DNA of 64,000 bases from Datnioides undecimradiatus. Taxonomy: Eukaryota; Chordata; Actinopteri; Lobotiformes; Datnioididae. Where the stretch lies: assembly GCA_008933995.1 (NCBI GenBank), contig WARS01000026.1:8198501-8262500 (forward strand), written 5' to 3'. Both the position numbers and the translations under genes were made by a program. Below the pieces are notes generated by a model, which saw nothing but the letters and a program-made list of their open reading frames with translations, ran no database searches and was not told the DNA's origin. Positions 13,593 to 46,091 of the stretch are shown here, one piece after another. Position 1 is the first letter of the stretch. Every line of letters starts with the position of its first letter.

Positions 13593-13874
13593 GGGCAGAC
13601 GTGACCGAACCCAACAGCTCAGACAGCCGTGGCGAACGTCTCGACTTCTTCCTCAAACAGGAAGAGGCTCTCACCACAGAGCCCAGTTACCTGGGTCCCA
13701 GCGAATCGGAGGAAGCTGGGGGAGGAACCGGAGGTGGAACAATCTCATCTGTAGCCAATCTGAAGGCAGCGCTGATGAGTAAGAACAGCCTGTTGTCACT
13801 GCGGGCTGAGATGATGGGAGATGATAACCCCTTGCTGTACGAGTACCTGCCCAAAGGAGGACACTCCCTGTCTT
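13593..13874 (+). CDS. zbtb46: zbtb46 coding exon 3
   Basis: The acceptor ends TCTACTCAG at 13592 and the donor is GTAAGT at 13875. The exon begins with two bases that complete a split codon, then reads ADVTEPNSSDSRGER and ends LPKGGHSLS plus one base. It is 282 bases, exactly 94 codons, and has the same phase at both ends. It can therefore be skipped without shifting the frame. The translation matches the ZBTB46 linker between the BTB domain and the zinc fingers (ANLKAALMSKNSLLSL block), a mostly acidic, probably disordered stretch with no zinc finger. The one-base overhang joined to exon 4 gives the Leu of LNDFTVIRKK, which confirms the junction. Confidence 0.95.
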
Positions 13875-13924
13875 GTAAGTCACTATTTACTAACACTCTG
13901 TTCATACTGATTGCTACACACGCA

Positions 13925-13928
<4 letters not shown>

Positions 13929-13955
<27 letters not shown>

Positions 13956-13956
13956 C
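13929..13956. repeat. (CA)n microsatellite
   Basis: CA dinucleotide run just downstream of the zbtb46 exon 3 donor. Confidence 0.9.
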
Positions 13957-14167
13957 CATTAAACCACAAGCCTCATTTCAACCTACAACTCAGGTATACG
14001 CAAACTGCTTTGACTCTACCAGTGTATTTTTGAGTACCTGCTCATGTGGTCACCTGCGAGACATAAAACATACAGGCTTGACCGCTTTTGACATGAGTAT
14101 CCTCTTCGTCTGCAGAGTATTTTCCCTCATCAGCCTCTGTATTTGGATAACTCTGAATGCATGCATG

Positions 14168-14193
14168 CGTGTGTGTGTGTGTGTGTGTGTGTG
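14168..14193. repeat. (GT)n microsatellite
   Basis: GT dinucleotide run of about 12 units. Confidence 0.9.
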
Positions 14194-15693
14194 GTGCCAC
14201 TTGAGTGCATAGTGGGTTTGTGTGGCAACGCCAGTGATGACTAGTCAGCGGTGACTCAGTGAGAGAACATTTTGCTGGGATCGCTCTCGCTGTCGTGAGA
14301 AAATTTGTTTGGTTTTATGTGACAGTTTCTTTGTGCGTATCAGTGCGTCTGCGGCTGTATTTCACAGCAGCAAAATAACACAACAGAGCTGCAGCAACTG
14401 TTCAGATATTATTTACTTACTGTATTTCAGCACCAATAATGATGAAGCAATTTGCTCTACACGACGGCACAAACCTCTGCATCCCGCGCCTGCAACAAAA
14501 AAGCAGTATTTTTCAAAAATTGTCCCTAAAAACAACCACTGAAACGTTACAGTGTTTAAGAGAAATATGATCTCACCTGAGATCAAATAGATACCAACAA
14601 ATCATAGGAATTTGTATTTTTATATTTGTTTTTTCTTTCTTGATTATGCAGGAACATGTGACCTGTATGTGCATAGTTTTATACTTTGTTTCACCACATA
14701 AGATCTGTATTCAAGTAACTTTTAAATCAGATTAGTTTTTTACCTAAAACCTCTTTAGAGGAGAACAAAACATTTTCCAATCATATCAATATTAAACATT
14801 CTTGTTTGTGCTTAATTTGCCCATGTTAACCAGAGATTTTTCCTTCGTTCAGTCAGTTTTTTTTGCTTTCACTGAGGGTGTTAAACTGTCAGTGTGTCTA
14901 CATGTGTGTGTATCTGTGTGTGTGCCAGCGTGAGTGTATATTTGCTTGAGTCCATGTCCGCGTGGGCACATTTGTGTGTGTGTGTCTTGTGTGTTTGTGT
15001 TTCTTTGCTTTTACTGGCTAGTAATTGGATCTTTTGTCCCGAGTTCTGCCTGTCTTTGTGAGCGGAAGAAAAGCAAAGGAAGGGTACAACTCTGAGCATA
15101 GTCGTGCCTTTTGAGTTGAGCCCCACTCACCTACAAAATAAAAGACAGGGCCCAGACTGAATAGACCAGAACACACATTCGCTGTTGCACATTCGTGCTC
15201 GCAAACGCACGTCACATCACATCACCCCTTTTGTGCAAGTGTTAAGTGTGTGGGATTGAGATGTTTCTGTTGGCTTAAAGAGGAGAATCAGATGCTGTCA
15301 CAGCACAGATAGACAGCCTCCAAAGCTCCAGAAAAGAGAAGAAGAGGCTTTTTGATACACACTCACACTTTACAGATACACCCAGCCTTGACTATATGAA
15401 TAGAAAATGTAGAGAATTTAGAGAATGTTAATCATTTGCTCCCTGCATAGAAAAAAAAACGCATATTGAATGAGACTTATAGCTGTATTTCAGTTGTCAC
15501 TGAAGAGGTGGTTTTTGGTTAGCCAAAACCCTATTTTGAATTCCCTACACAATAGGGGTTGGGGAAATGGGCTTGTCGAGATGGCCAGCAACCTCCCCCT
15601 CCCTCCCCTCCCTGGGTCTGTCCCTGTGTCTAAATGAGGACAGAAAATAAACAAACACTGTACCTCAGATTACTGGGCGGAGGATAAGTCTGC

Positions 15694-15990
15694 ATGGTTT
15701 GACAGATCGCTGCTCCCTGCCTCCTGCCCTCCCTCTCTCCATTCAGCCCTATTTCCCCCTCCTCCTGTTCTCCTCCCTGCTTCTCCTTCACCCCTGCTTA
15801 ACATCCTTCCTGTCCTTTTTCCCTCCTCTACTCCCCCTCACACCATCCATCCCTCCCTCCCTCTCTCTCTTTTCCTTCCCTCCATCTATTTCTCCTTCAC
15901 CCCTCCTTAACACTCATCCCTCACACTCTCTCCCTGCTCCCTCCCCTTCTGGCCGACTCCTGCAGTTCCTCCTTATTTGTCTCACTCCTG
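15694..15990. repeat. Polypyrimidine tract
   Basis: About 300 bases of nearly uninterrupted C/T on the plus strand (CTCCCT, TCCTCC words). Low complexity. Confidence 0.75.
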
Positions 15991-16832
15991 TCTCTTTCCC
16001 CCTCTTTTACTTCAGCTGTAGAGCATCAAAGTATGTTGGTTTAAAATCCTGGGAAAGTATTGATCTAGGCAGCGAGGAGGTAGAGCAAGGTCACCTGGCC
16101 CAATTCAAGGGAGACCACTGAGTATCAGCAAAAGGCCTTGACTTAGAGCTTCTGTCTCCCCCTCCCTCCCTTTTCCTCTTCCTCTCGTTCTCTCTTTCCT
16201 GTATAATTGACTCTTTAATAAAACATGTTTCTCCTAAAGATTCATACAGCCAAAATCGGCTCAAACTGAGAATCAATGTCACAGTTAAGCATCTGAATGC
16301 CCCTCTCTCTCTTTACATTTAGCAATTCAAACTGATACAACCCCCAGCTTGTTGACAGGGCTTACAATTCGAATGTGTGTCTCCTCTCGTTGCTTTCCTT
16401 TACATGGGTCACGGACTACATCCTCCTGGCATGTTGGTTGCCAAAATACAGTAGAGCGAGCCTGTATGTCAATCAGCCTCCAGAATCCAATTAAGATCAT
16501 TGGGATTTGGCCCCACTACCCCTTTGTGCGTCAGACAATCCATGCCAGACAATGGATTTCGCCGGACCATCCCTGCGCACCTGTCCACACTGCCACCATG
16601 TACTGGCTATAAAGAACATCCAATTAACTATAGGGATCATACTGACATTATTGAACTTTTTTCTCTCCACTGCCTGCTCTCATCACTTCACATCTACTTT
16701 TGAATATTGACTCACCCTGTACTGTAGCTCCCAGTGGCTCTGGAGCTTCTCTCCAGAGGTTTTTATGAGGATTTTTGTTTATGATTGTGACGCACATTTT
16801 GTCAGTCTTGTGCTAAAGACTTTTCAGATTTG

Positions 16833-17931
16833 AAGGTCCCATATTTTAACACTTACAGTTACATCTGTGCCACGTAATGATGTTGATTGATATTCCGACA
16901 CTTTCCTGCAGGCTGCTTTCTGTACGCTTTCTATCACACACGTTCAGCTTTTGCTGCTAGGTGGAAGTAACCGCCCACTATTCATCAACAAACATTCTGA
17001 TCATAATATGCATGTCCAGTTGCATTCACAGTTTATACTGCTCAGCACACCTCTGTCCACCCTGACAGCAGCCACACCGCTGCTCTCCCATTCTTGCACG
17101 CCCACACACTCACTCAGATAGTTTACTGTCAGATGTTTGCAAACTGTAACTAAAACACAAGTGGTACCTAAAACTGTTAAGACCACAGACCGTATATATG
17201 GATGAACGAAACGTTCTCCCTTTGCTTGGATATCCTGGACACGGGGGCTGCCATCTTGCCGTCAATCGTGAGAGTACATGAACTGTCAGTGATGACATCA
17301 CACCCCCTTATAATAACTATTAAACAAATAACTATTGAAAACTGAACATGAATCGAAAATTAACACTTAAACATACATCAATATAATAAAAGCTGCCTAA
17401 AATGACAGAAACAGGGAAAACTCTGTTTGGGGTGTATTATTTTTTGTTTTGTTCACTCATGTGCCAACTGCTAACACAGAGGGGGCAGGGGTTATTGCTT
17501 ATGTTGCACCCAATCAGCTTGTTTTGGCTTTACTTGAGTGGATCTGTGAAGTTGTCCATCTTTATACACAGTTAAGGGTCAAGACTGGCCAAATGGTGAA
17601 CTCCTTTCTCTTCAGCACACTTACTAACTTACAGTCACCTACATAAGTTTGTTATATGTCTTAGCCTCCCACAGAGAGCTTAGCTGCCAGAAGCTGCTAG
17701 TGATGCACTCACACAATATCTAATCCTCATAGACTGTTTATTTTATGGCTTTGACGTCAAAACCAGAATGAATTCTCAACCGTCTTGTAAAGCTGGGGGG
17801 GGGGGCATGTTATTGTGGAGGAGCTACTGGAATAACAGCAACTTCATATTTTTACAGCTTTTATTTTACACCTCCAGTTTATGAAAAACACAAAACACAG
17901 TCTAAATGTATTTTCATGATATGGCACCTTT
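16833..17931. mobile_element. Putative non-autonomous DNA transposon with short terminal inverted repeats
   Basis: The left end reads AAGGTCCCATAT. The right end, read on the minus strand, is AAGGTGCCATAT, 11 of 12 bases identical, and the two are about 1.1 kb apart. The motif AAGGTCCCATAT is one I associate with abundant non-autonomous repeats of teleost genomes. The interior has no transposase frame. It includes a block near 17180-17300 (ACCGTATATATGGATGAACG, CCATCTTGCCGTC) that looks like a second, nested repeat. Family and target-site duplication are not established. Confidence 0.45.
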
Positions 17932-18969
17932 AAAATTTGGATCAGATACGGCAGCAACACAACCTCTGCAATTCTTTATAAATGCATGGAAGGGAAGACC
18001 AGGGCCAATGTCAGGGTAGTTATTGACAAAGGAGATGGTAATAACTTTAAACAATAATTTCCCATTAAAGGTCATCTAATCCACTTTATATAAAAACTTT
18101 TTAGAATTGATGGCACTTTTCCAAACATCTCTTAAAGCTATAAAAGGGCAGTAAAACTGTCCAGAGGTGGTTGTTAGCGGGGCCTTTTCATCACGGAGTC
18201 ATGGAGAACACCAATCCTATCTGACTATTTCCTCCTAATAGACTTACCAAGTTTTATTTGATTAGATATTGGCAATTGGTTAGCCAGTTTACAGTAATTG
18301 CTAAAGCGTAATAGATTTTGACCCCATTCTGATGGCAGGTTGTATTTTAGTTCCTCTCTGGGCTCTCTGTGTGTAAGTAAAAGTAATCCAGTTACTTAAT
18401 CTCCGTGTATTTTTCTTTCTTATTTCTTTCACTCATGTCACTGTGCCGTGAGTCAGCCTGCTGTTATTTGTATTCTTTACAGCCTGCCAGACACGACTGC
18501 AATATTAAACTCAGTGAGACAAGATTGCAAAAATTACAGTCGTATGTTGGACTTCTTTAAGAGGCTTGAACAGAGACTGTACAAGCCGGTCGGTGTAGTT
18601 ATTCCATGATAGTCCTTTCCAAAGAAGTGTCCGCTGCCAGAACACCATTTGTTAATGAGCTGCTCCCTCTCACCTGTAGCTCATCCCTTTACTCTCTGTC
18701 TCCATTTCCCTCTTAATGTTGTTCCTCCCGTCACTGCCGGGGGTGGGGAAGAGGAGATTGGGAGTTAAGCATTTGTGTGTGTTCTCAGTAAGTGGGAGTG
18801 GGGAGTGTCGGGCGCGGTAGTTTAACATTCCAGGAATCCGTCCACGGTCGAGCCTCATGGTTGTGCGATTCTGTCCGTTGTGCAGAGGAGGGCAATGAAT
18901 GGCTAACCCACTGCATAACTCTGGAGACATTCCCCAAAACGCTGCCCACACTCACACATACTCATATAC

Positions 18970-18998
18970 ACGCGCGCACACACACACACACACACACT
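18970..18998. repeat. (CA)n microsatellite
   Basis: CA dinucleotide run preceded by CGCGCG. Confidence 0.9.
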
Positions 18999-19669
18999 GT
19001 TCAGAATAACCTGCACATTATACTCTGATTCAAATGCACTATAAGAAAAGGAGACACACTCTCAGTACCCACAAATGGGGATATTAATGTAGCAGGGAGA
19101 AAGCTTCTGTGTGAATAGTTAAAGAGAGTGAAAGGCTCTGTAAGAAATTTGAAATTCTTTATCCGGCGTGCTTTAACTTGTTGCTGGTAAACATCTTACA
19201 TGGTCGATGTAGTCGTCCTTTACCCTGCGTGTACAAAAAGTCTTCACTTGAGCTGCAAGATGGCTCCTCTCCAAAACAATCTCCCTCCACGCTACAGAGG
19301 ATCCTCAAGCCCTCTCCTTATATGCATTTTACTCGCTCACACAGCACATGCACACTCTCTCACAAAACACACACACGCTGCCATCCTCTGTGCACGCATG
19401 TGGGTGGAAGGAGAAGGAGAGCAGAGGAGCGAAAGAAAAAGAGAGAGAAAGAGAGAAGAGAAGCCCTAACCCTTTCCCCTCGGCTGGTGGAAAGTGAAAC
19501 TTCAGAGTTTTTCTTCCTCCCCCTCTCCATAGTGTTTGATAGTGTAGCACTGGCAGCCTCTGTGTGCCCCCCTGCCCACTCTCTCCCGTTGTGTTCTGGT
19601 GGCCAGCTGCTAGCAGAGTTGCAGTTGTACGTGAGTGGGTGGGTGAGACTCGTTTCCTGTGCTCCTCAG

Positions 19670-19992
19670 GGCTCCGCTCCAACAACTACTGCAGCACGCT
19701 CCGGCCAGGGGCCACGGGGGCCACTATTCATAACAAACAGGGGGCTGGCTCCTCTCCTCCTCCTCCTCTTCCTCTTCTTCCTCCTCATCTTCCACCATCA
19801 TCACCACCACTACCACCATCATCAACATCAGCATACTGCCCACCCACTCCACCCACGCCACTGCACCCCTCTGAGCCTCGGCCCCTGGAGTCCCCCGGTC
19901 TGCGGGCTGGGGCACCCCCACTGCGCTCAGAAGGGTTGGACATGGAAGTGGAAGAGGCCCCCGAGGGCCCGGAGCCCTCCACCCTGCCTGAG
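19670..19992 (+). CDS. Nested/alternative exon A (proline-rich)
   Basis: The acceptor has a good pyrimidine tract ending GTGCTCCTCAG at 19669, and the donor is GTAAGC at 19993. The exon is two bases plus 107 codons. The frame used by the downstream exons reads LRSNNYCSTLRPG, then a low-complexity proline/serine run, then an acidic end MEVEEAPEGPEPSTLPE. A second frame is also open and would give a histidine run, so the frame choice rests on phase agreement with exon B. The ATG at 19942 is the best internal start. The 5' boundary is the least certain part of this set; the exon could extend upstream as a 5' UTR if the gene is independent. Confidence 0.6.
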
Positions 19993-20672
19993 GTAAGCAC
20001 ATAGAGCCTGGCTCATCTCCAGGGCTGAGGCTGTTCTCTGGGTAGCACTCCTCCACTCAGATAAAAGTTTGTTAGAGCGAATGGAGAGAAGCATCCAGGG
20101 GGCAGCTTCACCCTGTTTCTGCAAACACACTGAGTCGGGTTGAGGTGATGGAGAAAAGAAAGTGACCGCTGACGTGGTGGGAGGGTGGGGCTATTGGTTT
20201 TATGAGGAGAAGTGGAGGTTAATGGGGTTATTTTTCATCATCGGAAAGTCTTTTCTACAGACAATCATATCATCTCTCAACCCCTCTCTGTATCTCTTTC
20301 TCTATGTGGAATCTGGCATATTTCCTTCCACACCAGAGAAACACTGTTTTTCTTATGTTTGTCTTTCTTTTCTGTGGGCTTTGTTTGCTTTCCTTTCAGA
20401 TTTCCAGTTCGCTTGTGTCTCCCTTTTTCATAAAAATCTTTTTTAATATAGCTAGACCCGACTTCACCGTCAAGCCAAGAGTCTTTGCTCAGCATTAGCG
20501 TTAATGTAGTTTATAGTGGTTACATTAGAGATGACACATCTAGTCACAATGGCAGCGTGTGCTTAGAGATGGCAGATAACGGGCAAGGTAGTGAGATGAG
20601 ACTGAGTAGAATCAATACAAGTAGACAATGAGAGGTTTGCTCTTGCAGCCCAGGAAATTGTTTGTTCTGTTT

Positions 20673-20677
20673 GGTGT

Positions 20678-20730
<53 letters not shown>
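20673..20730. repeat. (GT)n microsatellite
   Basis: GT dinucleotide run of nearly 60 bases with one interruption, in the intron between nested exons A and B. Confidence 0.95.
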
Positions 20731-20732
<2 letters not shown>

Positions 20733-20924
20733 TAAGTGTGGGCGTGCGTGTGAGCATGGCAGTGTGAGCATGTGTGGATGTGAGTTTTTGTGCCAGTCCG
20801 TGTGTGTATGCTGCTGAGCATTTAGGAGCAGCATTTGATTTCAGTGGACCTGCCTCCCAACAAGCCTCCCTATCTCTACGGACAAGCCATCTGTTTGCCC
20901 AGTGCATGGTGTTCTGTTCTTAGA

Positions 20925-20955
20925 GAGGAGGAGGAGGAGGAGGAGGAGGAGGAGG
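20925..20955. repeat. (AGG)n trinucleotide repeat
   Basis: About ten AGG/GAG units in the intron between nested exons A and B. Confidence 0.9.
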
Positions 20956-21478
20956 TGGAGAAGTGTAAGGGCCGAGTATATGGGTGGGGGTGAAGGAATG
21001 GCAGGAACATGGAGTATATGGAGGAAAGATAGAGTTTAGATGAGATGTAGAGAGGGGACAGGTGTTTTTGTGCACCTTGCTAACACCCAAAGGGGGCTGA
21101 ATGTATGAGTATCAGGCGGATGATATTATGAATACTGTAGATCAGCCTAACTGCTGTGTCTGTGTCTCATAGGACCGCTCTAGCATCCGGGAGCTATCAG
21201 CTATCTACAAGACATTTTCTGTGTTTGCTTGCCAGTCTTTAACAATTTATCGCTGTCTTCATAAATCATTCTTCTCTGTCATTTCTCCCCTTCTTCTTTT
21301 TTTTCCTGCTTTTCTGCATTGTTATGTCTTCTGTTTGTCTGTGTTTCTCACATGTTTGAACAAAGGTTATCTTCACAGCTTGTCTCACCTGCCTGCCTCC
21401 TGCATGCCCAGACAACATTCCATACAGACCGTATAAACATGTGTGTATGTGACATAACGGGATGTTTTGTGCTTGCAG

Positions 21479-21521
21479 GAGGGCTTAAAAGACAAAGAAG
21501 ATGTGAAGGAATACAACGCAG
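21479..21521 (+). CDS. Nested/alternative exon B (small, acidic)
   Basis: The acceptor is GTGCTTGCAG at 21478 and the donor is GTACGG at 21522. Its 43 bases give EGLKDKEDVKEYNA plus one base, starting at phase 0, which agrees with exon A. The carried base plus CC from exon C gives Ala. The small size and charged content are typical of linker micro-exons. The only alternative is the acceptor-like TCTCATAG at about 21172, which lacks a convincing donor. Confidence 0.7.
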
Positions 21522-21628
21522 GTACGGTTTAGGCTTTAAAAGTTGTCACGTCTGGATAACTTTAAAGTACCTTTTTGTAGCTTATCTATTTCTCTCACTT
21601 TCACTCTCGCTCTCTCTCGCTATCTCAG

Positions 21629-22428
21629 CCTTGGAAGGTGACCAGTCTCCTGTCGAGAGGGATCAGATGGGCGAGGAGAGCTGCGCCGGTGGCTTGACTG
21701 TGCCTGTGTCAGTGTCCATGGCTGGCAGAGGGACCAAAGGGATGAGGGTACTGGGCGAAGAGGTTGGGTCAGAGAAAAGGTTCCTGCCAGAGCCCGGTGC
21801 CTGGCCCTCACAGGGGTTCGCCTGCTCCCTGTGCAAACGGCTGTTCAGCAGCCTGGAGCATCTTAGGGAGCATGAGTACCGGCACACCCTGTCTCTGATG
21901 GCCTTGTCCTTAGACTGGCCGAGCATGCAGGGTCACCACCGCCAAACCACCCAGCCCCATCATCAGCCACAAACCCAGCCTCTTCACCTCCACCAGTCTC
22001 TCTACCGCCCTGCAGCGGCTGAGCATGTGCCCGCACGCTACCTCTGTTCCCAGTGCCCTGCCAGCTTCACCCTCAAATCCAATGCAGACCGACACGAGAA
22101 GACCATCCACTTCAAGAAGAAGCTAATGCAGTGTGTGTACTGTCTGAAGCACTTTAGAGACCGCACAGACCTGCACAGGCACCTGTCCTCTGTGCACTCC
22201 AAAGAGAGAGGGCACACCTGCCCTGCCTGTGCCAAGGCTTTTAGCACCCAGAAAAACCTGGCGACACATGTTAAAGTGTGCTGCCAGGTGGCGTCAGTGC
22301 CAGGATCTATACTGGGAGGCAGCACTGGGATGGACATGTCTCAGGGTGGGGTTATAGATTCGCTGTGGCAGCTTTCTCAAGATATGAAAGTTGACAATCA
22401 TAATCTCAGTATCAATGTGGAAAACTGA
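21629..22428 (+). CDS. Nested/alternative terminal exon C with four C2H2-type zinc fingers
   Basis: The acceptor follows a TCTCTC-rich tract ending TATCTCAG at 21628, and the stop TGA is at 22426-22428. It encodes 265 residues after the split Ala. About 65 acidic/neutral residues come first. Finger 1 follows (FACSLCKRLF...HEYRH), then a His/Gln-rich spacer of about 50 residues, finger 2 (YLCSQCPASF...HEKTIH), finger 3 (QCVYCLKHF...HLSSVH) and finger 4 (HTCPACAKAF...HVKVCC). Each finger has C-X2-C-X12-H; finger 4 ends H-X4-C. The last two fingers are joined by a SKERGH linker rather than TGEKP. A 40-residue tail ends SINVEN. This is the clearest coding exon of the nested set. Its product should be nuclear and DNA-binding, but its targets are unknown. 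Confidence 0.88.
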
Positions 22429-24465
22429 GACAGAATCTGGAGGCTGCAGGCTTATGTACACACATCCATACCCATCAGTTAGCAGCGAATCCTCACGTGT
22501 TGTATGATCATGCCAAAAAAATGATGGCATCATTGCACTGAAAAGGGAAGCGTTCCTTTATAAAATCAGATGTCTGTTGACATGATTATAAGTACACAGG
22601 GACACTTCCTTTATTTACCACTTGTTAAGATTTACATCATTATGTAATTTTTTAACAAGTTATCTAACATGGATTGACAGCTGACATGTCAGCGATGCAC
22701 AATTGCTATGCAAAGTTGTTCTGTTTAAACGACAGAGTGAAATTATATGTAGAACAATTTTTTTTAAATTATATTTAGCTTTGTAAATAGTTTGACTGTG
22801 CTCTGACCGGACCCATGAACAGGTGAATTAGTTTACATTGAGGTGCTCAGTGGAGAGACAGGGGGTGGGGGTGCGTCTTTATGCCTCCTAAACCACTTGT
22901 CTGGTTCTGTGTCGCCAGTCACCAGTCTGACTAAACTCTTCTCTCCTTTTTAGGCAGAGAGATCTTTATCTTTGTGTCCACCCCTGCATTACGGGCACAA
23001 AGGCACTCAGACACAGTTGATATCTGCCAGGCTTCTCCGTGGCTCACAGCACACACAACCATACCACCTGCAGGAACTTTGAGGAACTGCGGCATGAGAG
23101 CGAAACTGCAACCCAAATCAGCTTATTCCTGTTGCCAGTGGTAGCACAACTAAGTGCATCTTACAAATTAGCAGAAAACTTAATTGAATGTGAAGAAAAC
23201 CTTGAGGTTACTTTTCTTTGAAATGCAAGTGGGAGAAAAAAAAGTAATTCTGCACAGATCCAACTCTACTGGACGCGTAGGAGCTTGTCCTCGGTCATCA
23301 GTCTGACATGATTACCTCCAGTCAGCACTGTCAGATCAGTGCAGATGGAGGGGATGTGCCGAACAAGACAAAGCCAGCTAAAACAATAGACCAGTAGCAG
23401 CTCAGATGGGGGTTGGGTGGTGTCATTTTCTCTCTCCCTTTCTGTCCATCTCCTCTGTCCCAGATCTATAAGTCTTCTAGTGGCTGAGTGTGGCTGTAGC
23501 TGGACAGTAATTGGTCCTTCACGGCTCCGACCCTTTTTAACCCCTGACCCTTCATCTGAAGAGGAAGCGGGGACCGAGGGGCAGATGCCCCGTAAACCAG
23601 ATGAGCTTAGTGATGTCACTGCTGCAGATAGATAATGGTGTGGTTGTGAGTACAAGGTAGAAAATGGGGGATCAAGAGAGACGATTGGGAAAATGCAGGA
23701 GAGGAATAAGGGAGATGGTGACAGAGTTAGGTGGAGGGTGTTATAGAGCCGGAGCAGAGCAGCAGGATATTGGACTCAGCATGATCGCTGGCTTCAGAAT
23801 CATTGCTAATGTAAATTCACACCAATTTCTGCCAAATTTTCAAACCCTGCAACTATAAACCAAGATATTTTCTTGATGGAACCCAGTTATAAAGGTTTAT
23901 TGTGTGCACCCATACTGTGAATACTATACCCAAAGGGAAGTTATCCACTCCCTCTGATACTCCATTGTCACTCTTAATACATAGAAATGTAATTTCTATG
24001 TGTTCAAAAAAAAACAGAACTAGTGTCTTTTGGGAATATATCCCCTCGTTGCTGTGTGTATATAAGTATGGATATATACACATATGGTGTGTGTATATAT
24101 ATGTATATATACAAACACACAACAGGGAACTCCCAAATGCCAAATCCCTCCTAATTCAAAATGCCATTTCTCAGGTAGCACACTCTGTCCTAGCCAGCAG
24201 CTGAAACAGACTGGCAGACTCAGAGAAGTCAGGAACTAATCAGGAACTCTGCAGAGCCAGCCATTGAGGAGAAATGGCAAATACTGTGCGACTGCATTTT
24301 TTGAGTTTGAACATGTGTTGTTGTAAATATTGAAAGCTGTTTCACTCTAGATTATGAAATTTCTTATTGAACAAAAAATGTACTGTACACAGATATGTAC
24401 TTTTCTAAACAGAATGCCATTCTGCTTGTAGTTTTTATGCTGTAATTAAACTGTGATGGCAAACG
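22429..24465 (+). other. Probable 3' UTR of the nested/alternative transcript
   Basis: AT-rich sequence follows the exon C stop, with UTR-like words (TGTAAATA, TTTTTTAAATTATA). It leads to ATTAAA at 24445-24450, the first convincing poly(A) signal, followed by a T-rich stretch. A stop-to-signal distance of about 2 kb is normal for this type of gene. The extent is inferred. A pyrimidine-tract plus AG followed by an open frame at 23464-23635 could be a further exon but is weak. Confidence 0.45.
24445..24450 (+). terminator. Candidate poly(A) signal ATTAAA
   Basis: ATTAAA in TGTAATTAAACTGTG, followed within about 40 bases by a T-rich stretch. It fits the end of the transcript carrying exon C. 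Confidence 0.4.
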
Positions 24466-25225
24466 TGACAACCTCTCTGCAGTTTTTATCTTTTACCGAT
24501 TCTGTCATGCGCACATGCACACAATCGCAATATTCCCGTTGTTTGTCTTTGCATTTTAACTTGCCGCTCTAAAATGATGTGAATAAGATGCTCAAACCTG
24601 TTGTGCAGTTGTTGTGTACTTGCATGTTTTTGTGCTGACGAGTGTTTAATCAGAGCAGAAGTCCAATTGCAGATGGAGGTAATTATATTGTATCACTTTA
24701 AGCTTATAACCCTGAACTGTGTGTTTGACCCTCTCCCTCCTTTATGAGCAGTAGATGTGTACAGTAGTGTGTCTTGTGCTTGTCTACTCGTAAATCCAGT
24801 CTTGATGTCAGGTATTCATATACTGTATGCCTTGGCTTTTCTCACAAACAAGCATCATGTGCACACACACATACATACACAGTCTGTTTACTTGGATGCC
24901 CTTCACCTGGCTTAACTACCATTTAAGTCTAGACCTTGAGATAATTGGCTTTCCAGACCTCTACACGAGATTGGGACACGGTATTAACATTAGCTGTTTA
25001 TTTTTTTATTATTCCTATTTGTTTATTTATTTTTTGGTGAACACCTCGTTTGTGTGTGTGATTTTATTTCCCAACCCTCCTTCTTGTCATTGTCTGTGTT
25101 TGTCTTTCTGTCTGTGTTTTTGCTGTCCATAGCAGAGACCCTCTAGTGCAACTAAGGCAGACTGACTGTTGTGTCGTGTTTATAGTATCTCTTTGCCTTT
25201 ATTGCTTTAGTATGGAGGAAGAGCT
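24466..25225 (+). other. Intron stretch without a gene
   Basis: I see no exon, repeat family or RNA here, only AT-rich and CA-containing intron sequence. Confidence 0.6.
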
Positions 25226-25239: not shown

Positions 25240-25427
25240 TGTAGCTTTGACTGGGATTGGGGTGGCCATGGGAATTGATGGTACATTTCTAGACCATGCC
25301 GCTAATTAAATGTAATAACTGAAAAGTGACGTCTCGGTTTATTTAAACGAGCTTCATTCAAGACTAATCTTTTTCTCTCTCTCTCTCTCTCTCCACCGTC
25401 CCTCCCTCCGTCCTTCTGTCTCCGCAG

Positions 25428-25603
25428 TGAATGACTTCACGGTGATCCGTAAAAAGTTCAAGTGCCCCTACTGCAGTTTCTCTGCTATGCACCAGTGCAT
25501 CCTAAAGAGGCACATGCGCTCCCACACCGGTGAGAGGCCCTACCCCTGTGAAATCTGTGGCAAGAAGTTCACCAGAAGGGAGCACATGAAGAGGCACACG
25601 CTG
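25428..25603 (+). CDS. zbtb46: zbtb46 coding exon 4, zinc fingers 1 and 2
   Basis: The acceptor is TCTCCGCAG at 25427 and the donor is GTGAGT at 25604. The first two bases complete a Leu codon from exon 3, then NDFTVIRKKFKCPYCSFSA. Finger 1 is C-X2-C-X12-H-X3-H (CPYC...HMRSH). It is joined by the canonical TGERPYPC linker to finger 2 (CEICGKKFTRREHMKRH), whose final His lies in the next exon. These two fingers are the DNA-binding part of the protein and match the human sequence I remember almost residue for residue. Exon 3 and nested exon A are in the same phase, which allows alternative use. Confidence 0.97.
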
Positions 25604-25707: not shown

Positions 25708-26148
25708 GTCCACAGCAAAGACAAGAAGTACGTATGTAAAGTGTGCAGCCGAGTCTTCATGTCAGCAGCCAGCGTTGGGATCAAACACGGCTCACGGCGT
25801 CACGGTGTCTGTGCCGACTGCTCTGGCCGGGGCATGGCAGCACTGCTGGACCACAACGGTGAGGTGGGAGGCGACATCTCTCCGGAGGAGGAGCTGTATC
25901 CTGGCGATCGTTTCCACGATGACCAGGCAGAGTGCGATGGTGATGGAGAGGGGGAGGAAGAGATGATGGTCGAAGGGGACGGGGAGATGATGGGTGAAGG
26001 GGAGGAGGAAGGAGGGAAGTGGAAGGACTCAGGGATCACCACTGAGGCACACCGAGCACTGGACAATGAGAAGGAGGAGAGCGACTCCTCAGCACAGGAG
26101 GGGGAGCAGCAGAATGGTAGTGAGAGGGACTTCGCTTGGATCTCCTAG
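25708..26148 (+). CDS. zbtb46: zbtb46 coding exon 5, C-terminus
   Basis: The acceptor is TCTGTCCAACAG at 25707; the exon opens in phase 0 and stops with TAG at 26146-26148. It starts [11 protein letters not shown], supplying the last His of finger 2. A degenerate third finger follows (CKVCSRVF...HGSRRH, 13 residues between the second Cys and first His instead of 12). Next come [20 protein letters not shown], a strongly acidic Glu/Gly/Asp/Met-rich segment of about 60 residues, and the terminal DFAWIS shared with vertebrate ZBTB46. The intron to exon 4 is only 104 bases, so exons 4 and 5 behave as a pair. Confidence 0.97.
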
Positions 26149-27691
26149 AATCTGTCAGGCTCCTGTCAGTGGCTCGTCGACCAATCTCTGAAGATCTCTG
26201 AAGATCTCTCCAGCAGGATTCTCTGCTCTCTTTACCCATTCGTCCCACCGTGGGCAGGCCTTCCTTTGAACGGAAATGCTGTAGGGTGACGCGCGACAAT
26301 GATCTAAAACCATCATGAGAAAACACACTCAAATGCACACATGTACACACACACTCACACACACACACTTAGGCTATTCTCAACCTTGACTGCCATAGTA
26401 GAAGAAGAACGGTCAAGAGATGGCTCGAGTGCAAGGCTTTTTCTGCTTACCTCCTTTACTTCTGATGCAGTGTTTTTGTGTTTCTTTTTCTTGAGGGTTC
26501 AGGCCAGAGTCCAGTAGTTTTCTACTCTGTCACAACAGGAATCAACGAGGACGCTGCCAAGGACATGGCCAATGCTAAACTGCAACTTTGTATGTTTTGC
26601 CATCACAATCACCATGGAAACCAAGGATCACTGACAGTGTAGGGAAATAGCCAGGAGGGGGAGGGGTGCGTTGGTCCCACTTTGGCTGTAATGTTTCTGG
26701 GGAAAGTGTCTCTCTACAAGTGGAAGGAGAGTCGAAATCTATTGCAAAGCTACGTGTGTCAGAGGACCGGGCAGCCCGATGGCACATTGTTGATGCAGAG
26801 TCCTACTGCCACAGACTTGCACTTTAATGACAACTGACTCCTATCAAAGCCCTGAACCCATGGTTTACATTTTTGATCTGATCTTTACTTACCTAAACAA
26901 CTCGGTGACCGCACCTACCTTTAAGGATATACTTTATGTCCTCTTGACTGTTATCACGATATAGAAATCACTGAATCTTTGTGCAGATTGCTGTTTATAT
27001 AGCCTTTGCCTTTCAGTGGGGTCCTTAATCTTTTCTTCACTTAAGTTTACCACACGATTTCGTATCAGTCCATTCCAACAAATACCGGAGATTTGAGTAA
27101 TGTACATATACAATTTTGGGGGGATTTCTTGGGAAAATGGGAGTGAAGTGTGTGTGAGAGACAAGAGAGAGACTGAAAGAGACTTTTACAGTGTTTGTGT
27201 GGGTTTTAACCCTCTTTATACACAGAGTGGACATCACTTTCTGCTTCCCTGTTTGGAAAATCAACAAGTACACAGGGGAGCCACCTGACCCACACTATTA
27301 ACTCTTTCTGTCTCTCTCGGTGTCTCCAGCGGTTGTGATGTTTGGACCTGAGAGCCTTGTCCCTCTCTCTCTCTCTCACACCTGAGGAGGAGATGCCTTT
27401 GTTTGAAAACGGTTTCTTTTTTTCTTTTTTTTTCCTGTTTCTGTCGCCATCGGTCAGTCATGTGATTCCAGTTTCACAATACAGAATATGCAGACTCTTT
27501 CCATGGTTTTATCTTTTTGTTGGTGACATATTTTCTCCAGCTTTGTAAGGTTAAAAGAAGAGGATCAAAATTGTGCTTGAAAACCTGAGTTTGATATACG
27601 TAGAGAGTGTATTATTAATTTGTTTTGTCAGCTATTTATTGAAAAAATCTGTTTGTGGATTCCTAATTTTTGAGAAGTCATTTCCTTCCTA

Positions 27692-27706
27692 TCTCTCTCT
27701 CTCTCG

Positions 27707-27737
<31 letters not shown>

Positions 27738-27761
27738 GCTCTTTCTTTGTGTGTGTGTGTG
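27692..27761. repeat. (CT)n-(GT)n compound microsatellite
   Basis: CT dinucleotides interrupted by CGCT units pass into a short GT run, within the probable zbtb46 3' UTR. Confidence 0.9.
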
Positions 27762-30061
27762 TTGGATGGACAAGATGGGTGTTTGTATGCAAGAATGTTT
27801 GAGTGTCCAGTGTCCGAAAAAAAAAGTCTATATTGATTTCTTAGGATTATTTCCATGTTATTGACAATTCAAGTGAGCAGATGACATGTCTTATTATTAT
27901 GATTATCAGAACTATGATTAATGTTGTTGATGTTCCTATTATTAATTATTATTAAGTGCTGGATGCTAAGCTTTATTGTGTGTTCTTTTTTTGATATTTT
28001 ATATCTTGTATAAGAAAAAAAAAGCTTTTATACTTTGCCTTGTTGTGGACAGCAAGCCATGGGGCTTTTATCAACCTTTTATTGTGCCAGTTTACGCTTT
28101 TTCTGTCGTATTTGCTTTTTTACTGAGGGGAAAAACAACTTCACTGTCAAACTTCTCTGTTAGATATTGATTGAAACATATATTCAGCACACGCTTTTGC
28201 ATCACTAATGTACACTAATTGATTAATATCAAACCAAAAACAATCTAGTACCTTGTATACATGAAGTGCTTTTGTTTTACAGTCCGTGTGTGCAGGTGCT
28301 TTTTTGGATTTATTGTCGTGGTTAACAGTTTTGTTGTTGGGTTGTTTTTATTTTTGAACCTGTCACTATTTGTCACAGTTTGAAAAAAAGTGCACATGTT
28401 ATGGTATTATTGTGAATATGAAGGGCTGTGTGGAAGGACCAGCTAGATTTAGAAGACAGCATCTTAAAACCAAGCTGATTTTTTTTTTCTTCTAGTTTCT
28501 ACTGTCTCCGCCTCGCATGACACACAATCAAGAAGAAATGCAGCATGCAGACAAAACAAAGAGTGTTGAGTCCTCATGCTGTATTTCTATCTGCCAGTGT
28601 TTTACTGGCGCGACTCTCATCCATTTACATAAAGGGAAAGTGAGCACTGCAGCAGTAACTCTGGGAAACATTTTGTTGCCAGTGCAGGTTGCACACATCA
28701 GGCCACTCTGCTACAGGTGCCATATACTCCCATTAACCAACCCCAGCCGAGGAACTCAGTCCAATGCGATTTGTGATGCTTTCTTCATTTCTGGCAACTG
28801 TCTTTTTGTTTGTATTATTTATTGTGTTTTTGTTGACCCATTTATCAAATAGTTGTGATTTTTGGGGGGTAAAAAAAACAAAAACAAAAAATGAAAGAAA
28901 GAAAGCCGAAAGACAATGGAGTTAAGATTTTTTATGAATGTCCATGGTGGGTGTGGAAGGAGCCCATGATCGGTGACAAATCTCTGTCCTGTGGTGCTGT
29001 TTGTGGCCACTGAGAGACATCTGGATGTATGTGTGATTCCCCGGCCCTGCGCTCTTCTCACGACCTGTACTGTATGTCTTCTTCCTCATACTGGGTTGTA
29101 CTTCAGGAAAATGTCTGCCATCAACCCCTCAATATGTGCCTCAATGACATTTCACCCGTGTGCTTGTAAGAGTGTTTGTGTCCGAGCGATGAATATGTGT
29201 TTGTGTCAATGGATAGAGATTACTAAAATGCGACTGATCAAGATTAGAGGTGCAAAAAAACTTCAAAGAGACAAATCATGATGGGCGACTAGATTCTCCT
29301 TCCCACCGTGTGTTGATGACCTTTTGTGCCCTGATTCTGTGGTCTTAACTGCATGCCTGTGCTCATTTTGTCATACCAAAGCGACGTCTTCGGCATCTGC
29401 ACACAACTGTCTCATTCCACACGATGCAAAACTGGAACTGTTTGCTCTATTGCAGATGAATATGGGTATTCTTAGACGTGTACAAATTGCAATCCTCATT
29501 TAGCCTGTATAGCTTGATTCACACGTGCAAATCATGAAGCCATAGATATGGGTATAACTATATTATACTATATTTCAAAATTGGCGCTTTTTACTTTAGA
29601 TTTTGTTCTTCTACTAAGAGTGATGTGTGTATACCTTCATATATATGAATTTATATTACTATTATATATTATTTATTTTCTCTCTCAAGTTTCAGAGGGT
29701 CTTTCATTTGTAAAAGGTCGCACTTGAAGCTTGAGGTTTGTTTATTTTCATTGGGAATATTGTTCAATATGATACTGACTTTATATTGATGATTATCATA
29801 AACCTGTGTTTGTAACAAAATGTGTTAAATAATCAAAAAAACCTGTCCTGTTTTTACACCTGTTTTGTTTTGGGCAGATTTAAGTGCTCTTGTGCAGATA
29901 TTTTTCGGTTGATAGTACTGATCACAAAACATTTTTACAGCCAACCATGAGCCTCCTGTTTTGATGTTGGGGCTGGCCTGCTGGCCATCCAAGCCTCTTT
30001 CTAACTTCATGTTTAGTGGAAGAATTAGCTTGACTATTATTTGCAAAAACCAATCAGTCTC

Positions 30062-39957: not shown

Positions 39958-41061
39958 CTGGAACATGGACAACCACCCCGCCATAGCCAGAAGAGGACAC
40001 GGCAGAAAAGAGGAGGGGGACAGGAAAAGTGCAGATTAAAACAAAGAGGAGAAAACAGAAAAAACAGATCATATAAGTAGGGTAGAGGAAGCCTTTCTCC
40101 ATCTGATATGTGCCTTCAAATCAATTCTGATCATGCATCAAGAACATAACTGCTAACCACAAAAACTGTGTATTTCACACAAACTCAAAATGTGAGTTTT
40201 ATTAATGAGCATTACTTGCAGGCACTTGTGTTTTTTGAGACAGCATAAAGAATAGCAGGGAGTGACATGAAGTTAGCTGTACTGAATGAGGAGAGCGTGA
40301 GTACAGTGCAAATAGAGAAAATGAAACATGAGAAGTGCTCATTGTAATTTCACTGCATATGCATAATGTAAGTCTATTTTTATGTGCATTTTGTGTCGTC
40401 ATGGCAACTGAAAGTTCAATACTACTTCGAACCACGGCGAAGGACTGCATTCAATATTGAATATTTTAAAGATTTATACTTAAACTAAATGTGTTCTTCC
40501 AGCTGAAACCATTTCAGTTTTACCTCCAAGGGCATATAAGAGAGGAGCACTCATGACATTGTAAAGTTAGAGGAAAAAAAACAAGGGGAAGACGAGGGAG
40601 GAGGGATGAAGGAAAGGAGGGTGAGGAGAGGGCGGAGGCATGAATACTCAAAGATGCTACAACGTAGTTCGCATTATGTGTTACAAGCAGGAATTTAAGC
40701 AAAAATAGATCTCACGATTGAAACATTTTGACTTAAAAATATTCTGACTTCATTCTTCATGCGCCCTTATGTTAATATTTTCAAGAAAGTTTTCTCCTTT
40801 CTCTCCCTGATATAAACTCCCACACCAATGTAGGAGTTAAGTAATTCAAACTGACCTCAGAGTTTTTTTTACACCGATCTCAAAAAACTGCCTCTGCCAA
40901 TTCCATATGATAGAAAGCTAAAAATCTGTGGCTTCGAAATGCATTGACACCTCAGTGGTTTGTTTTATTGTGAGTGCTATTGCATTAGCAATACTTTGTC
41001 AGAAATGACATTTGGTCTTGTGTGTGTGTTCAAAATCTCTCTCGTGGTGTGTGTGAATTAC
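39958..41061 (-). other. slc2a4rg: slc2a4rg intron
   Basis: About 1.1 kb, with purine-rich stretches near 39975-40100 and 40570-40640. No other feature is seen. Confidence 0.85.
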
Positions 41062-41335
41062 CTGGTAGGCGTGGTCAGTGCGGATGTGGCAGAGCGTGGA
41101 AGGAGCTGACTGACTGAGCAGTGTTGGGGCGTGGATCAGCGAACCGTTCATATTGATGTGTTCAGAGTGAGGGACATCGGTGAGCGGCGGAGGGAAGACA
41201 GGCGGAGGACCGGCCGTGGTGGGGGAGGTGGGTGTGAGGCTGGACAGGCCCTCTGTTAGGCTGTCCATGTTGACCTCGATCTCTGAGTAGTAAAAGTCTT
41301 CCTCTCCATCACTGTAGTCTGAGTCGCTGTTTCGG
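41062..41335 (-). CDS. slc2a4rg: slc2a4rg coding exon (DSDYSDGEEDFYYSEIEV)
   Basis: The acceptor is CTCTGCTACAG on the minus strand (ending at 41336) and the donor is GTAATT (from 41061). One base completes Gly of HLGR, then 91 codons from RNSDSDYSDGEEDFYYSEIEV to CHIRTDHAYQ. The acidic/tyrosine-rich DSDYSDGEEDFYYSE motif directly after the zinc finger, and the later TDHAYQ, are diagnostic of ZNF395/SLC2A4RG/ZNF704. The middle is Ser/Thr/Pro-rich (SLTPTSPTTAGPPPVFPPP) and probably disordered. Confidence 0.96.
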
Positions 41336-43293
41336 CTGTAGCAGAGGAAGAGCAACTACTCAAAAACTCTTCTGCAACTACCCAAATTAGAGTCATTAAA
41401 CCTCCTTTTTAGATTTTGATTTCAGCTTTGAAGAGAAAATAAAGAGAACTTTCAATCAAGCAGCTAATGCTAATAATGCTATAAGGCAGCACTGCTCTTG
41501 CACTTGTTAATTGCTGTGACAACAGCTGCTTTATTAATGCATACAGCATTATGGGCATCACTCTCTTCTCTAATTTTGACCATTGATTTGTATGTGGACC
41601 ACACAGGTATATTCTAAAATAAAGTGCTTCTCTCAGACTGTAGCAGCAGCTCAGTCAGTCTGCACTCCATTCATATTTGCTTGTTGCGTTCAATATTTGG
41701 AAATAATCCCATTTCTCCAACTCTGCTCCACTCACACCTGACTTTCATTTACCCTGCCTTTAGGCCTTGCATTAACCTAGTACTCTGTTCAAACCCCAGT
41801 TTCCTCATCCCTCTGTGTCTAGCACTTCATTGGCTTCGCCTTAAAACTTATGCTATGTATTAGAAATGATTCCTTACTTCTCTCTCCTCTGCAGCCATTA
41901 ACTTTGTGGGTCTCACATGGACACTGCTATCAAGAGCACTAGCCTAAAGACTGTGTTAAAAATTTGGTTGAATAGGCCTGTGATATACTGCCATTTGCAA
42001 TCCAGTACATTATTTTAATGCTGTTTGACAACTCTCTTGAAATCAATAGGAAAACCTGGAAGCAGAGTCATTATCCACTTGCAATATTATATATAATATA
42101 AGTGTGATAAATATTTCATTTCATATCAATTTAATGTTGTTAGACTTGCCAAATAATAAAGTTTCCATTTTGCAAAAGATTCACCAACACTTTACCACAA
42201 ATAAAATGTTTCTATATACTTTTTGTGGCGTAAACATAGAAACAATACTGAAAAACATGTCTCAAAAACATCCCGGAACACTTTAAAATACAGACTACAG
42301 GCATAGTAGTGGTTGTGAAAGAAGCCAATGTTTTTGCCTATGATGTTCCATTTTACTCAAGTACCACTGACATCCACTGACCTAAGCGCAGCTTTTAACT
42401 CAAACAGGTGCAGGAAGTGGTTACTCTTCCTAGCAGCAGGGGGCAGTAAAAGCAAGTACTGCAGAGATCCTAAAACTAACAGACTGCTGGTGAAATGACA
42501 ATAAATGTGAAGCGAGTGTTTGAGGATGTCTTTCTTCAAAATCTTTATGACTTGATTAAAATTGAAAATTGCTGAAATTAATACATGGAATAACAGTAGG
42601 AACCTTCCTAAGTCAATTTTTTTGTATGGACTGTGAAATACTAATAGTTCACTTAATTAGCCAGTATGAGCACAAGGCAAATGTGTGAAGAAGCAATAAT
42701 TCACAGCATCCAGGCTGTGTCATGACAGATGTGCATCACTATTCTTGTCTTACCACATTATTTCCATCATAAAAGGGTAACACTGCTACCCCAAAGCTGC
42801 AGAGAAGCAATAACTTAAGTGGCACAATGAAGTTCTTTATTCAAGCAAAAAACAAGAATTAGAAATTGTCAGTGTAAGTGTTCTTCTTAACATAACTGAT
42901 TCTGAATTAAAAAAAAATAATAATAAAAAGACAAAAACAATGAAGATCATTAATATGACTCATGCAGACTGTCATAGTGCCTGGTGGTGGTGCATGTGTG
43001 TGTGTGTATTGTGGTTCAGCTAAGCCAAAACTGTGGCTAGCTGCAAAATACACACCGCTGAGCAGCATCAAGACTTTTATCTAAGGAAATGCATGAACAA
43101 CTAAGAGAATGAACCTAAAATATTCTGATTTCCCTTCCAGTCATTTTTATATTTTACTGCACATCAATAAGCAGATGTGAAGAACATAGACAGTAGTTGG
43201 TCTGACATCTGTTAACAGGAGTGGTGAAACCTACGAAAAAAAACTGTGCTGCCTTTGTGTGTGCTCAGTTTCCTGTGACAATTTGCAACTCAC
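41336..43293 (-). other. slc2a4rg: slc2a4rg intron
   Basis: About 2 kb of AT-rich intron. A CTCF-like motif lies near 42433. No exon or recognisable mobile element is seen. Confidence 0.85.
42433..42444 (+). promoter_or_regulatory. CTCF core-like motif
   Basis: GCAGCAGGGGGC matches the CTCF core CCASYAGRKGGC at 11 of 12 positions, followed by AGTA. Motif evidence only. Confidence 0.35.
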
Positions 43294-43394: not shown

Positions 43395-46091
43395 CTGAAA
43401 GAGGCGTTCACCACAAAACCGCCAGGAGTCAGACAACAGCAGATTTTGGACACGCTTTAAGCGTCACTATAAACACACCATAGTGTCTAGAACATGACTA
43501 GAAACAATGTGATGCAATAAGAGAATATGATCTCTAATATCAGTGTATTTATCCCATTACAACTTTTGTTTATTTATTTAATTTTTATTTAAAGCCCTTG
43601 GTTTGTGAATAATTTTCTCAGCAAATGTAAAACACCAGCTGTCAGACAAAAGCGCATCAGATGTAAAAATGAGCATAATATCTGCCGAACACTGATGAGC
43701 ATTTCATGGAAAATAGAGGTTTATGCTCAATTGATTGTAACACTCCTCTCTGTGGATCTCATTGGCAGCCTCAATAAAAAGGACTTCGTGGGGGATTGAG
43801 TGCCACTCTACAAGGGGCCAAACACTACACCTCATTAGAGAGCTATTAGAGCACCAAGCCTATAAAAATAGAAACCTGATATGTAACAAGTTCAGACGTG
43901 TACACAGTAAAAGAGAAAGAGACAGAAAAAACACCTCTCAACCTTTCTCTGTCTACCTCACAGATTAACACTGACAGATTGATGAGCAGGATAAATGCAC
44001 TATTTCGATCCATCTTGCCGCAAATAGTTTGGTGTTAGGGTATAGTGTGGAGGTTGGCCCCACACAGCATTCAAGGCCTCTCACCAAAGTACATCTAAAT
44101 ATACTTTAATATGCACACACTTCCCATAGAGAAGTACACAAGCACACCTGTGAAAACCACAATGACCTCTTTTTAACTGAACATCAAAGAAGCATTTGCA
44201 AATGGTTATCATATCTAATCATCCTTGAATCTGATTTTAGATTATGCAGAACGAGGATAACTCCTCTTGGTTCGTGAGCACACTGTGAGCAGAGGGGTGG
44301 ATGGAGTGGTTGTTTTTATCTGAATTTATTTTCTCTATGCATATCAGGGTCTGGCAGCTATCCCATGAGCAGGCAGGGGCTTGCGCCACTGCTAATGAAA
44401 GACAGTGGGTGTGTACTCTCATTACCTCTCAACAGCCTCTGGAGAAAGACAGACAACAAAAAAAAGTGAGGGAGGGAGAGAAGAAGCAGAAAAGACAGCA
44501 AGGAAAACCAAATGATTTTATCAATGGCTGTGCTAACTCTCCCCTGCACTGCTAGCCCTCTACACTGTTTCTTGCTGACTGTCACTCCCTTTCATTCTCT
44601 TTGACAGCAAAAAAACCCCATTAAAGTGCTTAAGCGTTGTTGGCTACATGCATGTTTGAAACAACCCTCCTATGACACAGCAAAGCTAGACTTTAATCCC
44701 ACAAACAATCACAAATCACTTAATTCCCTAAGTGTTTTTCTTGCATCTTAACACTGTTACAGTAAAACTGGTGATTGCCATGTTTAATAATCCTCTTAAC
44801 CCACTGCCTGCACAAAATCAAACAGCCTACAATCCAAGGGGCGGCTGCTCATAGAAGGTTTAGACCTCTGGAGTTGGCGTCATCTATACTGCAACACAAA
44901 GCTAGCCAGCAGGTTAGCTCATATTTTAGGCCTCTTCCACACAGCTCGTGTGTCTATATTCCTCCCAGCGTCATCCTACTTAATTTCCTGTCTGCTTATC
45001 TATGGTATGGCATGGGTCCTTGGAGTCTTTATGGTTTTATATATTCTGCAGCTCAATAGTCTTCACTGCTGCCCCACTCCTGGGAGGATGAATTGCAAAC
45101 TCCCACATATTGTACAGTATATGAGCTCTCCTCTGTCACTATATGGCCCGAGGAAATACTGAGATTCATTTCTCCTCTCCTCCTTTACACCCTCTGAGTC
45201 TGACTGTCCTCGTTTTTATGCATCCCTTGAACCTTTTGTAACTTCCTGCTGTTCTTCAGTCCTCTCTCCTCCATTCTTACTGAACCTTTCCACCTCTCCC
45301 CTTGAAAAGACTGAGAATGTAAAGCTTCGTGACGGAGAAATGCTTTGACATTCTGGACTGTTTATAAAGCAGGGGAAAAAAGAGAGGGAAGAGGGAACAT
45401 AATCCATCATCCACACAAGCAGGAAGCGACAGGCTTTATGTCAGAGGCTTTTAAACTGCATGGTGCTTAAGTTTTCTGAATGTTTCTAGTGGGTTTTCAG
45501 AGGTCCCTCCCTGCTACTACTTTATAAAAATAGCAAAAACACATTGGAGTCGTGGCTCTACAACTGTGGCCATGAAGTACTACTCAGCACGAGCTAATTT
45601 TTAGTTTAAGTCAAAAGTCAAGTGGACAGCACCTTGGGCTGCTGTGATAACCAAAACGCCACAGCTGTCAAGCATCGAGCCTAGTCAGGATACTGTACCG
45701 ACCGTGGATGACCACTTATTATTATATTTATTTTGTTAAATCTGTTAAATCCTTATTAGATGTTTGTTATATAGGGTTGGCTAATGTAACGGTATATACT
45801 GACAGTATATGCAGCACTATAATGTATCCACTTGCAAAGATTTGACATTACCACATAACTGATCCCTTAGTTTCTCAGTTACATATGCGGGACAGGCTAT
45901 GTGTGATTCTGCTGCCATGTAAGGTAATGTGATTTTGACAACAGGATCGTTCACAACGTTCACACAAACACAAGAGCGTCAGTGGCAATAATGCACCTCT
46001 AAATGAAATTTCCCTGGTGTGGGACTAATAAAGGATATCTAAATCTAACCTGGTTTTCATTTTGCTTTTGGCAGCGGGACATCCACCTTAC
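43395..46091 (-). other. slc2a4rg: slc2a4rg intron
   Basis: About 2.7 kb. AT-rich with no supported gene; a short retroposon-tail relic lies at its upstream end (46002-46050). Confidence 0.85.
46002..46050 (+). repeat. Short retroposon 3'-tail relic
   Basis: AAATTTCCCTGGTGTGGGAC followed by TAATAAAGGATATCTAAATC resembles the common fish retroposon tail AATTTCCC...AATAAAGTATCTATC. Only the tail is recognisable. It ends about 40 bases from the donor of the 46092-46330 exon. Confidence 0.5.

Follow-up and report, generated by a model that had tools for sequence, protein, structure and literature searches.

An alternative set of zinc-finger exons inside a zbtb46 intron that may give one vertebrate BTB factor two DNA-binding ends

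Introduction

How many DNA-binding ends can a single vertebrate BTB gene supply? The question is raised by a 64-kb stretch of the genome of the fish Datnioides undecimradiatus (assembly GCA_008933995.1, contig WARS01000026.1; G000:C469:8198501-8262500, hereafter the window), whose plus strand holds the 3' part of zbtb46. The mammalian ZBTB46 protein that has been studied carries the two zinc fingers encoded at the downstream end of the gene. In the fish gene, three further exons, here called A, B and C, lie inside an 11.5-kb intron, upstream of these canonical finger exons, and encode a linker and four more fingers. Very probably, these exons form one of two alternative 3' ends of a single zbtb46 transcription unit, which would thereby place two different DNA-binding ends on one BTB factor.

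Exon structure and reading frames

Exons A, B and C all have AG acceptors, A and B have GT donors, and the phases join without a stop codon (Table 1). The last exon common to both ends leaves a T, to which exon A adds GG; A ends and B starts on whole codons; and exon B leaves a G, to which exon C adds CC, the frame closing at 22428. Exon A is preceded by a pyrimidine-rich acceptor (TCGTTTCCTGTGCTCCTCAG), and because it has the same entry phase as the canonical finger exon, either can follow the shared exon.

A tblastn search of the window plus 60 kb of upstream DNA with P0094, a Sparus aurata zbtb46 isoform X1 model, located the BTB exons on the same contig, outside the window and 7.8-9.1 kb upstream of it (C469:8189377-8189562 and C469:8189744-8190686). 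The same query matched exon C with an expectation value (E) of 6e-159 and exon A with E 2e-53, matches that are, judged from sequence, far beyond chance; identity to P0094 is 96% over 94 amino acids for the shared exon and 95% over 111 columns for exon A. The full reading frames, 858 amino acids for the alternative and 675 for the canonical protein, are each open to a sole final stop. The N-terminal BTB domain expected of a ZBTB protein is present in the upstream exons at the head of this open frame, and PF00651 is annotated on P0094. An earlier note, made from the letters of the window, had placed exons A, B and C on the strand of the gene, in frame and ahead of the canonical finger exons, and every coordinate proved exact in its splice borders and phases. 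The note had also described a BTB gene with an extra coding unit; the three-exon unit in the zbtb46 intron stands, and the BTB exons have to be sought upstream of the window.

Table 1. Positions within the window of zbtb46 exons and of the fingers encoded by exon C
Feature	Position	Strand	Details
Shared zbtb46 exon, last common to both isoforms	13593..13874	+	donor TT/gtaagt; leaves phase 1
Alternative exon A, proline-rich linker, 323 nucleotides	19670..19992	+	ctcag/GG ... GAG/gtaagc
Alternative exon B, 43 nucleotides	21479..21521	+	gcag/GA ... GCAG/gtacgg
Alternative terminal exon C, coding portion with four zinc fingers and a short tail	21629..22428	+	acceptor ctcag/CC; stop 22426-22428
Finger F1 (C2H2)	21823..21885	+	ligands C65 C68 H81 H85 of the exon-C protein; 53 residues before F2
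Finger F2 (C2H2)	22045..22110	+	helix positions -1/2/3/6 = L,S,N,R
Finger F3 (C2H2)	22132..22197	+	helix positions -1/2/3/6 = D,T,D,R
Finger F4 (C2HC)	22219..22281	+	helix positions -1/2/3/6 = T,K,N,T
Putative 3' untranslated region of the alternative terminal exon	22429..24470	+	ATTAAA at 24445; presumed end point
Canonical zinc-finger exon, two C2H2 fingers	25428..25603	+	entry phase as for exon A
Canonical last coding exon with stop	25708..26148	+	end of the 675-amino-acid frame

The alternative finger set

The four regular C2H2/C2HC fingers first read from the sequence are borne out by profile and fold. The exon C protein matches zf-C2H2 in four stretches (E 6.6e-12), comprising three C2H2 fingers and one C2HC finger (F4), with F1 set apart and F2-F4 in tandem. 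An AlphaFold model built with 26 sequences (mean predicted local distance difference test score, pLDDT, 65.4; predicted template modelling score 0.29) places four beta-beta-alpha units in its better-predicted stretches and joins them by low-confidence linkers, the mean pLDDT of ten-residue blocks being 90-95 in F1 and 75-92 in F2-F4. Foldseek pairs the model with multi-finger DNA complexes of a generic kind (best E 3.9e-05; TM-score 0.13 by query), and sequence matches in the PDB are likewise generic multi-finger DNA-binding proteins; as far as the model goes, what such matches add is only the ordinary look of the fingers, which would presumably bind DNA. Profile, predicted fold and the ligand alignment described below agree in finding what a ZBTB protein should carry at its C-terminus, namely C2H2 fingers with intact zinc ligands.

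A search of the 581-Mb genome with exon C, in which 144 of the 613 first-look candidates were scored, gave 121 matches. The top match is exon C itself, at 614.6 bits. With the runner-up at only 44.8 bits and 31% identity, the candidates scored include no close second copy; exon C as a processed copy or a paralogue is thereby ruled out. The earlier note had itself named, as the outcome that would undo its proposal, an unconserved processed copy of an unrelated gene, and the introns, the genome search and conservation from sharks to marsupials together exclude it. The broader suggestion that an unrelated finger gene was copied here by retroposition or as a mobile element, or that the reading frame arose by chance, has next to no probability: nothing speaks for it except the generic C2H2 resemblance to numerous finger genes, whereas the unit has two introns, gave no close second copy in the genome search and is kept in zbtb46 across many vertebrates. 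That the gene and the phase are conserved already refutes a chance or retroposed origin.

Distribution and conservation

A collection of 5.8 billion proteins was searched with the C-terminal part encoded in the window (78 matches), with bichir protein P0064 (104) and with platypus protein P0111 (82), giving 184 distinct proteins when combined. To be admitted by the search, a protein must be 0.55-1.75 times as long as the query and have exact five-residue words in common with it; each cluster carries one name, and some rows are unnamed. The 184 were sorted by a simple motif test, which overlooks some genuine BTB proteins (P0030 and P0146 failed the pattern although PF00651 is annotated on both). 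BTB together with F2-F4, and no canonical fingers, is found in 97, and F2-F4 without a BTB motif in 29. Another 20 combine BTB with canonical fingers but lack an F2 motif (long-linker forms, matched through the A/B linker). Alternative and canonical fingers occur together in three classes, made up of BTB, F2 and canonical fingers (7 proteins), of F2-F4 with canonical fingers but no BTB (6), and of BTB with F2-F4 and canonical fingers (3). BTB is accompanied by F2 and F3 in 4 proteins and by F2 alone in 3. One protein shows just canonical fingers, and the remaining 14 are other finger proteins. The claim that one BTB gene has two alternative DNA-binding ends is thus supported by zbtb46 gene models, with the 97 proteins of the first class foremost.

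Going by source names, the BTB-fused form occurs in sharks and rays (Heptranchias, Heterodontus, Pristiophorus, Mustelus, Stegostoma, Leucoraja, Rhinoraja), ray-finned fishes (Erpetoichthys, Acipenser, Polyodon, Lepisosteus, Amia and many teleosts), caecilians (Microcaecilia, Geotrypetes), turtles, tuatara (Sphenodon), lizards, birds, platypus, echidna and many marsupials; Alligator (P0151) also has it, with F4 broken. The same exon, which the earlier note had proposed to look for in other vertebrates, is present, going by these predicted proteins, in fishes, caecilians, monotremes and marsupials. No placental mammal is found among the named rows of the three protein searches, which cover annotated proteins and not genomes; likewise, and within the same limit, the named matches contain no annotated zbtb46 protein with the alternative end from frogs, salamanders, coelacanth, lungfish or jawless fishes. 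The platypus query reaches marsupials at E about 1e-126 to 1e-129, a match strong enough that a comparable placental protein, if annotated, should also have turned up. Both kinds of gene model occur within one species in Sparus aurata, where P0094 is alternative and P0078 a long-linker form with canonical fingers, and in Sarcophilus (P0116 and P0173). The alternative isoform is often named 'uncharacterized' in its sources, or else PRDM16, EVI1-like, PRDM2, HIC1, ZBTB17 or SETD1B, and under such divergent names it can readily be missed or counted wrongly.

The window was aligned with 31 proteins chosen from the 184 to span the groups (32 rows in all). In this alignment zbtb46 orthologues from sharks to marsupials carry the same alternative end, with its joint to the shared exon at the same place or about 6 residues earlier. 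The earlier joint (KG/PG as against HSLS/..) is seen in caecilians P0155 and P0158 and in sharks and rays P0065, P0066, P0068, P0070, P0123 and P0125, and would be consistent with use of a donor farther upstream in the shared exon. Zinc ligands are intact in 32 of 32 rows for F1, where they are invariant also in a 26-row alignment (A1), in 31 for F2 (broken in garter snake), in 30 for F3 (pheasant, garter snake) and in 29 for F4 (alligator, pheasant, garter snake). Recognition positions -1, 2, 3 and 6 of F2 are identical in all 32 rows, and those of F3 are nearly so (D 32, T 31, D 32, R 30), while the residues of F4 recur in 25, 31, 30 and 20 rows, respectively. Between the window and the shark Heptranchias, F2-F4 are 65% identical and the linker 18%; for platypus the figures are 71% and 21%, and for Sparus 100% and 91%. 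Over the four non-teleost rows measured, linker identity to the window is 18-23%.

Spliced contigs and competing explanations

Among the matches to the C-terminal part of the window are 18 rows from lgn and ena sources, which are open reading frames (ORFs) of short contigs; the lgn sources are probably assembled sequencing runs. Four of them (P0002, P0005, P0007 and P0032) run from exon A through B to C without intron residues, the residues equivalent to exon B being directly joined to those of A and C, and this uninterrupted reading points to spliced RNA. Because none of the four includes the shared exon, the 13874-19670 junction rests on the gene models of many species, on phase and on conservation, which at the level of sequence strongly indicate that A-B-C is fused to the BTB part.

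Several observations weigh against a single unit with two ends. All four intron-free ORFs not only lack the shared exon but start at a methionine inside exon A, and 12 of the 18 contig rows enter non-exonic residues before C, as genomic DNA or unspliced RNA, a further 2 being ambiguous. Judging by their names, the BTB-fused proteins come from automatic gene prediction. Positions -1 and 6 of F4 are variable and the recognition positions of F1 widely so, and the fingers are broken, by decay or by gene-model error, in rows from Alligator (P0151; F4), Phasianus (P0164; F3 and F4) and Thamnophis (P0167; F2-F4), a pattern suggesting that decay has recurred among land vertebrates, provided that the models are correct.

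The methionine starts would suit a nested, separately promoted zinc-finger gene without BTB, merged with zbtb46 by prediction programs, and so would models without BTB such as P0001, P0020, P0044 and P0069, although P0020 and P0069 do hold shared-exon residues. Such a gene is nevertheless unlikely: exon A has a pyrimidine-rich acceptor in a phase that fits the shared exon, more than half of the collected proteins (97 of 184) are BTB-fused, the joint between the shared exon and A recurs from sharks to marsupials, and the 12 contig ORFs amount to exon C read back into the intron. The broken fingers could instead mean that the intronic terminal exon is mainly regulatory, truncating the message and lowering the amount of canonical protein, while the fingers it encodes matter little. 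This is very unlikely, since a pure decoy would not keep its fingers, whereas in F2-F3 the zinc ligands and recognition helices hardly change over the 32 rows, beside a linker of 18-23% identity to the window in the four non-teleost rows measured. One gene with two alternative finger-bearing ends thus continues to fit the observations best.

The 3' end of the alternative message is less easily placed. The first AATAAA or ATTAAA motif after the exon C stop is the ATTAAA listed in Table 1, with another at 25305, and the same motif scan finds neither motif behind the canonical stop (26149-29500). As the scan is empty there, the motif at 24445 is a weak hint at best of a polyadenylation site.

Other isoforms and neighbouring sequence

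Some gene models combine the two finger sets in other ways. Bird models P0159-P0163, P0165 and P0166 run from BTB and the first alternative fingers straight into the canonical fingers, which would fit a splice donor within exon C downstream of F2; the join was examined in the sequences of P0159, which stands for 191 member sequences, and P0166, and by motif in the others. Long-linker isoforms occur in fish (P0071-P0078) and in marsupials, turtle and kiwi (P0169, P0171-P0181). In the sequences inspected (P0071, P0078, P0169, P0175 and P0176), exon A residues are spliced into the canonical fingers, and the fish rows also carry B and the start of C. A search of exon C in the window for an in-frame donor that could feed the canonical acceptor gave one site at 7 of 9 consensus letters (after 21637), which does not match the fish models. 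From the bird and long-linker forms the locus seems, at least in gene models, to build finger sets in several ways.

Elsewhere in the window, minus-strand open frames at 41005-41355 and 46005-46337 are exon-like, and presumably resemble an SLC2A4RG/ZNF395-type neighbour gene. Pfam gave no match for four minus-strand ORFs of the window, these frames included.

Discussion

With two alternative ends on one transcription unit, splicing of the shared exon to A-B-C, followed by the stop and polyadenylation after C, would yield a protein of BTB, proline-rich linker and F1-F4, and skipping of A-B-C with splicing to the canonical finger exons would yield BTB with the canonical fingers. Since both acceptors take the same phase, the choice would be an ordinary competition between an intronic terminal exon set and the distal acceptor at 25428. 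BTB is a dimerisation domain in the ZBTB family, and the two proteins would share it while reading different DNA; self-pairs or mixed dimers might form, possibly with different targets.

Judged from the distribution of gene models, the arrangement would date at least to the jawed-vertebrate ancestor, and the alternative end has apparently been degraded in some lineages, placental mammals among them. On balance, we lean towards an ancestral jawed-vertebrate zbtb46 that specified two factors with a common BTB and separately conserved heads, one of which was lost in placentals, the group in which the dendritic-cell role of the gene was defined. Zbtb46 would then have, in fishes, monotremes, marsupials and many reptiles and birds, a function of which mouse and human ZBTB46 are incapable.

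If true, this would change how a standard dendritic-cell marker is read outside placental mammals. It would bear on zebrafish work in which zbtb46 is used as a dendritic-cell marker (PMC12604482). In chicken, ZBTB46 is described also in putative plasmacytoid dendritic cells, unlike in mice (PMC10634274), a pattern on which a two-ended zbtb46 may bear; given the pheasant model with broken F3 and F4, the chicken form may itself be decayed. Probes, knockouts and reporters should specify which zbtb46 end they report.

A second ZBTB46 finger set goes unmentioned in the available portions of five articles (PMC6600524, PMC4451681, PMC13421333, PMC10634274 and PMC12604482), and none of the titles and abstract openings at the top of long lists of open-licence PMC results describes an alternative zbtb46 protein. 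Database models named 'zbtb46 isoform X1' or 'X2' already contain it in many species; as automatic models are present under many names, the alternative protein is not unseen, only undescribed as far as can be told. The canonical mouse and human ZBTB46 (BTBD4, zDC, BZEL), whose finger domain is encoded in human by exon 4 (PMC13421333), represents the same gene, with the same BTB part and shared exon as fish zbtb46.

A layout of this kind is known from insects. If the two ends are real, zbtb46, whose BTB domain we take not to be of Tramtrack type, would be a conserved vertebrate case in which the trick of alternative ends also arose, or persisted, in another BTB branch. Descriptions of a single BTB part with alternative DNA-binding ends come mainly from arthropod Tramtrack-type factors, and 17 of the 20 isoforms of Drosophila lola have different C-terminal C2H2 fingers (PMC11426971). 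Like lola and other Tramtrack-group BTB genes as described there, zbtb46 would join one BTB part to alternative C-terminal finger exons, and the lola-like layout proposed in the earlier note is found at the level of DNA and gene models, in common BTB exons and alternative finger exons of matching phase. Unlike lola, fish zbtb46 has only two main ends and is a vertebrate gene; and the trans-splicing that the same source gives for lola and mod(mdg4) would be unneeded in zbtb46, with all exons in cis on one strand.
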